A stretch of DNA of 64,000 nt, taken from positions 2,356,001-2,420,000 of the forward strand of contig NZ_VFPO01000001.1 in assembly GCF_006716765.1 (NCBI RefSeq), written 5' to 3'. The position numbers were made by a program, and so were the translations under genes. Of the stretch, positions 44,587 to 55,500 are shown one piece after another. Position 1 is the first letter of the stretch. Each line of letters begins with the position of its first letter. This DNA comes from Actinomadura hallensis (GTDB lineage: Bacteria; Actinomycetota; Actinomycetes; Streptosporangiales; Streptosporangiaceae). The notes beneath the pieces are model-generated. The model saw nothing but the letters and a program-made list of their open reading frames with translations, had not been told where the DNA came from and made no database searches.

Positions 44587-46128
44587 ATGAGTGCTCGCGG
44601 ACCCGCCGTGGACCGGCTGCTCCCCCTGGACGGGCTGCCCGCCCTGGACGTGCCCGCGGCCGAGGTGCTGCGCGCCCGTGAGCTGACCGCCCGGCACGGG
44701 ATGCAATGGGAGCGGGAGGTCGACCTCGCCGATCCGGTCATCACCCGGGTCGAAAGGTTCGCCGCCGAGCGGGACCGTCCCGCCGTCGCGGACGGGGCGC
44801 GCGTGCTCTCCTACGCCGAGCTGGCCGCGCGGGCGCGGCGGCTGGCGACGCTGCTGGAGAACGAGGGCGTCGAGCCGGGCACGGTCGTCGGCGTCGGCGG
44901 CCCCCGTTCGGCCGACGTCATCGCCGCGTTCCTGGCGATCGAGCTGATCGGCGCCCTGTACGTGCCCGCGGACGAGACGTGGCCCGCGGGCCGGGTGCGG
45001 GACGTCCTGGACCAGGCCGGCGCGTCCGTGCTGATCGCCGCCGAGGACGCGGGCGCGCTGGCGGAGGGCGCCGCGGAGGCCGGCTGCCGCATCGTGCCCT
45101 TCGCCGCGGCGGACGGCCTGGACCCCTGGCCGGGCGAGCCCCGCCTGGACTCCCTCGACCGGCCCCGGTACGTCCTGTTCACCTCGGGCTCGACGGGCCG
45201 CCCGAAGGGCGCCGTCGTCGAGCACCAGGGCATGGTCAACCACCTCTGGGCCAAGATCATCGACCTGGAGATGACCGACGCGGACGTCGTGGCGTTCACG
45301 GCCCCGCTGGGCTTCGACATCTCGATCTGGCAGATGCTCGCCCCGCTGCTGCTGGGCGGGCGGCTCGACGTGGTCGGCGACGAGGTCGCGCACGATCCCG
45401 TCGCGTTCGCGCGGGCCGTCGACGAGCAGGGCATGACGATCGTCGAGCTCGTCCCGACCATGGTCAGGCACCTCTTGGACGATCTCTCCCCTGAGTCGCT
45501 GCAATCTGGGGGGACGCCCCCCCAGCCCCCCCGGCGACCGCCTTTGGGCAGCCTCCGCTGGATGATCGCCACGGGGGAGGAGCTGCCCGCCGAGCTGTCG
45601 CGCCGCTGGCTGGAGGCCATGCCGCACGCCCGCCTCCTGAACGCCTACGGGCCCACCGAGTGCTCCGACGACGTCACCCACCACACGGTGACGGCCGGCG
45701 ACCTGCGGCTGCTGCGCCTCCCGATCGGGACGCCGGTCGTCAACGCCCGCCTGTACGTGCTGCGCGAGGAGGACGACGGCTCGTGGGCGGCGTGCGACGT
45801 CGGCGAGACCGGGGAGCTGTTCGTCGGCGGCGTGGTGGTCGGGCGCGGCTACCTGGGCAACCACGAGCGGACCCGCGAGGCGTTCTACCGGGACCCGTTC
45901 GGCGAGTCCCCGACGGGCCGCCTCTACCGGACGGGCGACGCGGTGCGCCTGCTCCCCGCGGGCGCGGGCGGCGAGGACCGGCCCACCCTGCAGTACCTGG
46001 GACGCGTCGACCGGCAGGTCAAGATCGCCGGGGTCCGGATGGAGCTGGGGGAGATCGAGGCGGTGCTGCAGCGGCACCCGTCGGTGGCCGCCGCCGCGGT
46101 CGTGGTGCACGAGTACCCCGCCGGTTGA
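44587..46128 (+). CDS. Stand-alone adenylation protein truncated after core A8 (N-terminal part of a split A domain)
   Basis: A 513-residue protein with adenylation cores A3 (FTSGSTGRPKG, about 199), A4 (GFDISIWQM), A5 (NAYGPTECSDD), A7 (LYRTGD) and A8 (LGRVDRQVKIAGVRMELGE). It ends at VVVHEYPAG, about 36 residues after the A8 hinge, where normal domains continue with R-L-V-A-Y and A9/A10. It therefore lacks the invariant A10 Lys and has no carrier domain. No frame downstream supplies the missing part; it is found instead in NRPS module 3 (54269-54456). The pocket residues I read (D, I, W, E, I, T, A, D, D) are unusually acidic, which suits a basic side chain such as Dap. The gene is divergent from sbnAB. 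GGAGAG lies 5 nt before ATG 44587. A GC palindrome is embedded at 45505-45525. Confidence 0.88.
   Translation: MSARGPAVDRLLPLDGLPALDVPAAEVLRARELTARHGMQWEREVDLADPVITRVERFAAERDRPAVADGARVLSYAELAARARRLATLLENEGVEPGTVVGVGGPRSADVIAAFLAIELIGALYVPADETWPAGRVRDVLDQAGASVLIAAEDAGALAEGAAEAGCRIVPFAAADGLDPWPGEPRLDSLDRPRYVLFTSGSTGRPKGAVVEHQGMVNHLWAKIIDLEMTDADVVAFTAPLGFDISIWQMLAPLLLGGRLDVVGDEVAHDPVAFARAVDEQGMTIVELVPTMVRHLLDDLSPESLQSGGTPPQPPRRPPLGSLRWMIATGEELPAELSRRWLEAMPHARLLNAYGPTECSDDVTHHTVTAGDLRLLRLPIGTPVVNARLYVLREEDDGSWAACDVGETGELFVGGVVVGRGYLGNHERTREAFYRDPFGESPTGRLYRTGDAVRLLPAGAGGEDRPTLQYLGRVDRQVKIAGVRMELGEIEAVLQRHPSVAAAAVVVHEYPAG
45505..45525. repeat. REP-like palindrome inside the adenylation gene
   Basis: T-CTGGGGGG-ACG-CCCCCCC-AG forms a 7-8-bp GC stem with a 3-nt loop and is followed by another C-run (to 45532). 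It encodes part of a Gln/Gly/Pro/Arg-rich stretch between cores A4 and A5 that other A domains lack, while keeping the frame. It resembles the palindrome at 16378-16397. Confidence 0.55.
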
Positions 46129-52500: not shown

Positions 52501-55500
52501 GGTCCCGGCCGCGATCGTCGTGCTGGACGCGATGCCGCTGAACCCGAACGGCAAGCTCGACCGGGCCGCGCTGCCCGAGCCGGACTTCTCCGCGTCCCTC
52601 GGCGACCGCGGTCCCCGCGACGCCCGCGAGGAGATCCTGTCCGGGATCTTCGCCGACGTCCTCGGGCTGGACCGGGTCGGGGTCGACGACGGGTTCTTCG
52701 ACCTCGGCGGCGACTCGCTGAAGGCGACCCGCGTCGTCGCCCGCGCCCGCGCCGCGCTGGACGTGGAGCTGCCGGTCCGGGCGCTGTTCGAGGCCCCGAC
52801 CGTGGCGGGCCTCGCCGAGTACATCGCCTCGGCGTCGGCGGCGGAGCGGCCCGCGCTGCGGCCGGCGGAGCGGCCCGACCCGCTGCCGGTCTCGTACGCG
52901 CAGGAGCGCCTGTGGTTCCTGAACCGGCTCGAAGGGCTCACCGCGACCTACAACATGCCGATCCCGCTGCGGCTGACCGGCGCGGTCGACCCCGACGCCA
53001 TGCGGGCGGCGCTGCGCGACGTCGTCGCCCGGCACGAGTCGCTGCGGACGCTGTTCCGCGACGCCGACGGCGAGCCGTACCAGGTCGTCCTGGCGCCGGA
53101 CGAGGCCGAGCCGGAGCTGACGGTCGGCGAGACCGACGACGTGCGGGGCGCGGTGTTCATGGACGCCACCCGCGGCTTCGACCTGGCGAGCGAGCTGCCG
53201 ATCCGCGCCCACCTGTACCGGCTCGGCGAGGACGAGCACCTGCTGCTGGTCGTCATGCACCACATCGCGGGCGACGGCTGGTCGATGGCGCCGCTGGCCC
53301 GCGACGTGATCACCGCCTACCTGGCCCGCCGGGACGGCCGCGCGCCCGAGTGGGCGCCGCTGCCGGTCCAGTACGCCGACTACGCGCTGTGGCAGCGGGA
53401 GCTGCTCGGCTCCGAGGACGACCCGGGCAGCCTGGTCTCCCGGCAGATCGCCTTCTGGAAGGACGCCCTCGCGGGGCTGCCCGACGAGATCCGGCTGCCG
53501 TTCGACCGGCCGCGGCCGGAGCGCGCGTCCTACCGGGGCGGGCAGGTCGCCTTCGAGATCCCCGCCGACCTGGCGGACGGGCTGCGCGCCCTGGCCCGCG
53601 ACCACCAGGTCAGCGTGTTCATGGTGCTGCACGCCGCGCTCGCCGCCCTGCTCACCCGCCTCGGCGGGGGCACGGACGTGCCGATCGGGTCGCCCGTCGC
53701 GGGCCGCACCGACGAGGCTTTGGACGACCTCGTGGGCGTGTTCGTCAACACGCTGGTGCTGCGGACCGACACCTCCGGCGATCCGTCGTTCGCCGAGCTG
53801 TTCGCCCGCGTCCGCGAGACCGACCTGGCCGCGTACGCGCACCAGGACGTGCCGTTCGAGCGGCTCGTCGAGGTGCTGAACCCGGCGCGGTCCCTGGCGC
53901 GGCACCCGCTGTTCCAGGTCATGCTGACCCTGCAGAACAACCCCGAGGCGTCCGTCGAGCTGCCCGGCCTGAACGTCGCGGTCGAGCCGGTCGACGCGGG
54001 GGTCGCCAAGTTCGACCTGGAGTTCCTGCTGGAGGACGCCCGCGACGGCGGCGGCGCGCTGGCGGGCACCCTCGAGTACGCCCTCGACCTCTTCGACCGG
54101 GAGACCGCCGAGCGGCTCGCCGGCTGGTACCGGCGCACCCTGGAGGCCGTCGTCGCCTCCGGCGCCGCCGTCACCGTCGGCGGGCTCGACCTGCCCGGCG
54201 CCGACGCCCTGGCGGAGGCGGCTGAGGCCGAGGGGACGCCCGGCGCCGCCGGGGCGGCGGACGGGCCGGTGGAGAAGCGGCTCGTCGCGTACGTGGTCGC
54301 CGCGCCCGGCCAGTCGCCCGACCCGGAGGAGCTGCGCGCCCACGTCCGGGCGAGCCTGCCCGAGTCGATGGTGCCCGCCGCGGTCGTCGTCCTGGACGAG
54401 ATGCCGCTCACTCCGAACGGCAAGGTCGACGTCAAGGCCCTGCCGAAGCCGGAGCTGACGATCGCACCGGCGACCGCCTACCGGGCCCCGTCGGGGGAGA
54501 CGGAGGAGGCCGTCGCCGCGGTCTTCGCCGAGCTCCTCGGCGTCGAGCGGGTCGGCGCCGACGACGACTTCTTCGCGCTCGGCGGCAACTCGCTCATCGC
54601 GATGCGGGTGGTGAGCCGCGTCCGCCGCGTCCTGGACGTCGAGCTGCCGGTCCGCTCCCTGTTCGAGGCGCCGACCGTCGCGAGCCTGGCGGCGCTCATC
54701 GGCGGCGGAGCGCGGACCGGGCCCGCGCGGCCGGTGCTGGCGCCGCGCGAGCGGCCCGCCGTGGTGCCGCCGTCGTACGCGCAGCAGCGTTTGTGGTTCC
54801 TCAACCGCTTCGAGGGCCCGTCGGCGACCTACAACATGCCGACCGCGCTGCGCATCCGCGGCCCGCTGGACGTGGCCGCGCTCCGCGCCGCCATCGGCGA
54901 CGTCGTCGCGCGGCACGAGACGCTGCGCACGGTCCTGCCCGACAGCGGGGGAGTGCCGCGCCAGCTCATCCTGGACCCGGCCGCGGCGCGTCCCGAGCTG
55001 GAGGTCGCCGACACCACGGAGGCCGAGCTGCCGGCGCGGCTCGCGACGGCCGCCGGGTACGCGTTCGACATCTCCGCCGAGCCGCCGCTGCGCGCGCACC
55101 TGTTCCGGATCGGTCCGGAGGAGCACGTCGCGCTGCTGCTCATGCACCACATCGCGGGCGACGGCTGGTCGATGGCGCCGCTCGCCCGGGACGTGATCAC
55201 GGCCTACGCGGCGCGGGCGCGGGGACGGGAGCCCGACTGGGCGCCGCTCCCGGTCCAGTACGCCGACTACACCCTCTGGCAGCAGGACCTCTTCGGCTCC
55301 GAGGACGACCCGGACAGCCTGATCTCCAAGCAGATCGCCTACTGGAAGGACGCGCTGGCCGGGCTGCCGGAGGAGCTGCCGCTGCCCACCGACCGGCCGC
55401 GGCCGGCGCAGGCGTCCTACCGGGGCGGCACGGAACGCTTCCGCCTCGGCCCCGAGGTGCGGGAGGCGCTGCTGGACCTGGCCCGCGAGACCGGCGCCAG

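Follow-up and report, generated by a model that had tools for sequence, protein, structure and literature searches.

In the window (the whole stretch of Actinomadura hallensis DNA analysed here, 64,000 nucleotides of contig NZ_VFPO01000001.1), an adenylation (A) domain of a nonribosomal peptide synthetase (NRPS) cluster is divided between two proteins. Its core, with motifs A1 to A8, forms a free-standing protein, and motifs A9 and A10 (together termed A') lie in the third module of the neighboring synthetase, between the condensation (C) and carrier (T) domains. Comparisons with related genomes and solved structures make us rather confident that the core and the A9-A10 part of module 3 form one A domain non-covalently, which would load 2,3-diaminopropionate (Dap) onto the carrier domain of that module (T3). 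The features concerned are given below; the AC profile is a profile of the A C-terminal subdomain with 81 positions, built from the window's own intact NRPS modules.

44587 to 46128, plus strand: NRPS adenylation core A1-A8, free-standing, 513 amino acids (Pfam, AC profile, pocket code DIWEITADD)
46048 to 46116, plus strand: first half of the A C-terminal subdomain (AC profile positions 1-23), at the C-terminal end of the core protein
46574 to 59284, plus strand: NRPS 1, with modules C-A-T, C-A-T, C-A'-T and C-A-T and a C-like domain at the end
52880 to 54166, plus strand: condensation domain of module 3 (profile match)
54275 to 54445, plus strand: A' (A9 and A10; AC profile positions 28-81) of module 3
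54422 to 54424, plus strand: codon of the A10 lysine (NGKVD), the residue missing from the free core
54434 to 54664, plus strand: carrier domain of module 3, the predicted acceptor

The core protein contains a PF00501 and TIGR01733 core with motifs A3-A8 and ends in ...GEIEAVLQRHPSVAAAAVVVHEYPAG before its stop codon. Pfam found an AMP-binding domain in it, no AMP-binding_C, and no PP-binding domain that could serve as a carrier of its own. Its end matches positions 1-23 of the AC profile, and no A9-A10 subdomain was found on the core's own chain, which ends at AC position 23. The pocket code reads DIWEITADD, the tenth position (the A10 lysine) being absent from the core chain. Upstream of the gene lies a GGAG ribosome-binding site. 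About 45 residues (window 44587-44740) precede the usual A-domain start and are partly conserved in the core's relatives; this N-terminal extension is a possible docking element. In module 3, the order is C, AC positions 28-81, T, an A core being absent from the series. About 37 residues separate the end of the C profile match from KRLVAYVV...LPESMVP...NGKVD, and the PF13193 match begins at position 26 or 27 of 76.

These data bear out most of what a preliminary description had read from the sequence. Profile and Pfam agree that module 3 lacks A1-A8 yet has A9 and A10 between C and T, and the break does fall after A8, in the loop of the C-terminal subdomain (AC 1-23 on the core, 28-81 on module 3). 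The core ends after A8, as had been stated; it carries A1 to A8, however, and not only A3 to A8. A surplus A domain, named there as a possible loader of module 3, was looked for among the A domains of the cluster and none is left over: seven carrier domains face six in-line A cores and the one free core. PF13193 likewise gives seven places in the cluster, of which one is partial, for the seven carrier domains, and a spare A domain of the cluster was rejected as the source of loading.

Upon aligning both halves with solved A domains, we observed that they occupy consecutive ranges: 216-620 (core) and 622-742 (A'-T) in 9be3_A, 14-436 and 436-500 in 8www_A, 485-902 and 903-964 in 6p1j_A, and 47-475 and 476-572 in 4d4g_A. 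The ranges are also separate in EntF 5t3d (439-888 and 897-1038, mapped via an alignment) and LgrA 5es8 (170-612 and 622-760). These alignments indicate that the halves are complementary, together tiling solved A domains and abutting at the break. The core and A'-T were also folded apart as single chains. The predicted core has a mean predicted local distance difference test (pLDDT) score of 89.9 overall and is confident to about residue 470, except for a loop near 301-320. Its orphan half-subdomain reaches a pLDDT of 45-67 with the last strand unformed, and A' in the best A'-T model scores mostly 86-94. A broken subdomain awaiting its other half would look like the low-confidence tail of the modeled core, a fit that is not proof.

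The same break recurs in relatives. A scan of genome contigs gathered 224 relatives, of which the best 80 loci were kept. At 56 of these (L012-L066 and L078; 63-88% identity) the protein is truncated, ending in the same loop in 55 and cut by the contig in the other (L065), and at the remaining 24 (47-56% identity) it continues through A9-A10. Among the 54 truncated cores with a measurable end, 51 stop 2-8 residues past a V-V-x-H motif, the other three at 14, 17 and 36. A maximum-likelihood tree was built from 84 rows: 54 truncated cores, the window's among them, 24 full-length relatives and 6 in-line A domains, with three short cores omitted. In it, a branch with 100/99 support separates the truncated cores from all other rows. 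The suggestion made at the outset, to look for this split in other genomes, gave a positive result, both the break and the C-A'-T module recurring, and the shared endpoint and grouping indicate that the split is old and shared, not chance or artefact.

The partner module travels with the core. A C-A'-T module lies within the same locus at 42 of the 56 truncated-core loci, and extending L050 and L057 revealed two more; the remaining 12 loci reach contig ends, several with only whole-core modules in view. All 13 stretches taken from other assemblies, 10 of them new genomes, contain the module. Across 341 genomes of the family, in which the best 4 first-look candidates per genome were scored, the core search matched 68; four matches were full length (G276, G277, G318 and G138), leaving 64 core-bearing genomes, among which G280 (the record of L065) has the end of its core cut. 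A probe consisting of C tail, A' and T (E <= 1e-50) matched 59 genomes, all within these 64, and none of the 277 genomes without the core among the best 7 first-look candidates scored per genome. In G282 a frame break ahead of the match limits it to A' and T. A class-wide search gave matches in 6 of 394 genomes. Near the full-length relatives, no C-A'-T module was found at any of the 24 loci within flanks of up to 10 kb, nor in the extended flanks of four of them (L099-L106).

Quantifying divergence over 44 C-A'-T modules (dN/dS, the ratio of nonsynonymous to synonymous divergence, by simple counting, pooling only pairs with a synonymous proportion pS under 0.6), we found A' to have the highest mean identity of the NRPS stretches measured, 0.81, at a dN/dS of 0.35. 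The 38 residues directly before it have an identity of 0.44 and a dN/dS of 0.86; the values are 0.67 and 0.62 for the C tail and 0.75 and 0.47 for the T domain. For the corresponding stretch, they are 0.64 and 0.61 in the first intact module and, in the next module, 0.73 and 0.44 (26 loci). In the free core itself they are 0.79 and 0.31 (42 loci), with 0.87 and 0.135 over the final 22 residues. All 44 A' modules keep the A10 lysine. Some near-invariant residues of A', for example a K before the first strand and an R in the helix, are mostly absent from intact modules of the same locus, and in A9 of A' neither Y nor H is among the three commonest residues before M. The values argue that A' is under purifying selection and that the adjoining linker drifts.

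The earlier proposal that loading depends on reassembly of a domain split between A8 and A9 appears likely in the light of the recurrence of the split and the purifying selection on A'. The free core would bind ATP and Dap, and module 3 would contribute the last strands, the helix and the A10 lysine, the strands of the two halves pairing across the break. The lysine, catalytic for adenylation (PheA K517), would complete the active site as the subdomain closes for adenylate formation. The completed subdomain, in its module-borne half, would then present T3 for thioester formation.

Other explanations can be weighed against this assembly. The core might adenylate alone and load T3 in trans, with A' merely a docking platform or spacer beside T, which we consider unlikely. 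The core does retain the whole A1-A8 side of the active site and is well formed in the N-terminal part of its predicted model; one core-less module of Actinomadura litoris lacks A9-A10, and, in the available text of PMC8949500, stand-alone A-T proteins serve deficient modules elsewhere. Yet docking by itself would leave unexplained why the core is missing precisely the piece that the module retains. The A10 lysine is kept in all 44 A' modules, the region is more conserved than T, and a corallorazine core without A9-A10 was inactive according to the portion of PMC11342130 at hand. It is more improbable still that A' is a dead remnant, with module 3 skipped or T3 loaded by a neighboring A domain. 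The descent of A' from the module's own A-domain type and the decaying remnants held by other core-less modules would suit a remnant; selection on A' amid a drifting neighborhood speaks against it, as do an erosion that halts at the A8/A9 boundary with one exception in A. litoris and the confinement of close C-A'-T matches to core-bearing genomes. A sequencing or assembly error, or a fission recent in this strain only, has next to no chance of being correct and was ruled out by the recurrent break, the shared motif at the ends, the 100/99 grouping and the partner module kept in relatives, the window moreover coming from a one-contig genome that is 99.89% complete.

Several observations count against the assembly of the two halves. 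In 5u89 (again mapped via an alignment), the ranges of the halves overlap, at 438-942 and 891-1031, and of the five A'-T models, three scored poorly (68.5-68.7). The co-occurrence is phylogenetically non-independent, as most cases look like one inherited cluster, and the absence from the 277 core-less genomes is limited, 7 candidates having been scored for the probe and 4 for the core, so that a divergent module would escape. Five of the 64 core genomes gave no probe match at the threshold. G251 and G261 are drafts in which the contig with the core stops early; the other three are of Nonomuraea type, and one of them, G199 (the genome of L057), has a divergent module visible to the domain scan. 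G270 holds, besides the usual cluster, a second truncated core (G270:C2, about 491965-493431; L140, L122 and L123) with no NRPS within about 18-20 kb. One A. litoris module (L093, open reading frame 312-5462, minus strand, residues 844-918) consists of C, an A6/A7 remnant and T, without core and without A9-A10; A' may be dispensable in some modules, or this one may be dead. Finally, comparison with 109 NRPS-module tails and 31 tails from the loci of full-length relatives placed A' nearer the former (mean best 80 bits) than the latter (60 bits) in 44 of 44 cases, and the halves therefore have different ancestors.

This last comparison also bears on origin. A descent of A' from the Dap A lineage, as its displaced tail, was rejected, its best match outside A' being an NRPS-module tail in every case. 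As A' is closest to ordinary module tails, two losses probably occurred: a stand-alone Dap A domain was shortened by ~55 residues at its end, and the module shed its own core but not the final ~55 residues, the half in contact with its carrier domain. In A. litoris, Nonomuraea thailandensis, Actinomadura sp. OS1-43 and G269 (second cluster), modules still show a decayed remnant of the core ahead of an intact A9-A10. In the accessible text of PMC8097286, NRPS evolution tends to keep the interface between the A subdomain (Asub) and T and to change the core, and a loss of the core from the module agrees with this published trend.

The choice of substrate is suggested by the pocket and by the genes next to the core:

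42313 to 43326, minus strand: sbnB homologue, Dap biosynthesis (NCBIfam TIGR03944, above cut-off)
43380 to 44465, minus strand: sbnA homologue, Dap biosynthesis (NCBIfam TIGR03945, above cut-off)

The core pocket has the acidic residues of the Dap-bound structure 9n1u (D235, E278, D330 and D331 in PheA numbering). PvdL A3, which activates diaminobutyrate (Dab), shares this pocket, and the call of Dap over Dab therefore rests on sbnA/sbnB. Adjoining genes and pocket together point to activation of Dap by the free core. The full-length relatives (24 loci, L067-L077 and L079-L091) share the pocket, DIWE(I/L/M)TADD, and 18 of the 24 have nearby a protein with 35% or more identity to the SbnA of the window.

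In some genomes, one core faces more than one A9-A10 module. G027, G028 and G029 (Actinocorallia-type) each have one truncated core, searched for at E <= 1e-40 (in G027, 150 of 171 candidates were scored), and a second NRPS elsewhere with a C-A'-T of its own; no core or sbnA/sbnB was found beside that second NRPS in the stretches fetched. In G027, the second C-A'-T (L126, G027:C1:7940009-7940851) lies ~0.85 Mb from the only truncated core found. L128, L130 and L131 are, like L126, second-NRPS C-A'-T modules with neither core nor sbnA/sbnB in the stretch fetched. A candidate second truncated core in G029, a 585-amino-acid frame, turned out to be a complete A-T protein. G034 shows the same pattern of one core and a second NRPS in the stricter searches across the 341 genomes. 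In A. litoris, four modules of the cluster lack a core, and three of the four retain A9-A10. In Actinomadura sp. OS1-43, four modules of the second cluster, which is spread over three contigs, have no intact core, and A9-A10 is present in each. The free Dap core may be a plug-in subunit for several A9-A10 "socket" modules, within a cluster or across NRPSs, forming a hybrid A domain with each of them in a natural interchangeable-core system, a proposal for which we hold the evidence to be evenly balanced. A strict rule of one core and its sockets is weakened by the A. litoris module without A9-A10 and by the orphan core of G270.

The preliminary description knew of no characterised case of this kind, which does not stand: in the available text of PMC11342130 (2024), Crz1 and Crz2 of corallorazine biosynthesis share between them an A2 domain broken at the same A8/A9 site, and glycine activation returned once the two proteins were mixed. 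There, too, the break follows A8 and A9-A10 sit on another protein. The core there is part of a C-A-nMT protein (nMT, N-methyltransferase), however, and the A9-A10 half opens the next open reading frame with T-TD, in linear order, whereas here the core is free-standing, the second half stands in the third module after C, and there is no methyltransferase at the break (none was found by Pfam in the core protein or in NRPS 46574-59284). SyrB1, Alb04 and the ramoplanin/enduracidin-type A-T proteins are alike in that a separate protein activates the amino acid for an A-deficient module (available text of PMC8949500), but have a carrier of their own, while the free core here lacks both A9-A10 and T. 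Interrupted A domains have an auxiliary domain inserted at the same A8/A9 loop (PMC8097286 and PMC11355689, as far as their text was available), their chain being continuous where it is broken here; the window's genome also has a methyltransferase-interrupted A domain at this loop (NRPS L011:3114-17378, minus strand). Swapping of A cores (Acore), in the same portion of PMC8097286, likewise leaves the module with the T-contacting part (C-A linker, Asub and interface) and a foreign core; here, by contrast, the core is a separate protein and not recombined into the gene. The full-length relatives with the same pocket differ in keeping A9-A10 and in having no C-A'-T module seen nearby. A free core together with A9-A10 buried between C and T was not found in the open-licence literature, and as far as this search extends, the new elements are the free-standing core, the socket within C-A'-T, the wide conservation and one core facing several sockets.

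If the halves assemble in trans, the amino-acid-choosing core would be naturally separate from the half-subdomain that hands over to the carrier, a separation kept in up to 64 of 341 family genomes. For the engineering of exchangeable cores, it would offer a breakpoint taken from nature and a socket module ready for use, and also a family in which to test what portion of an A domain is needed by the carrier. For annotation, the arrangement carries a warning, as the core resembles an incomplete gene and the module appears A-less. Two further observations concern the surroundings of the cluster. Just downstream of it lie two adjoining alpha-lytic-type protease genes with prodomains (L009:10726-11835 and 12080-13156, minus strand), and directly after the last NRPS gene follow an MbtH-like protein and a GNAT acetyltransferase (L009, about 8893-9051 and 9099-9872, plus strand).

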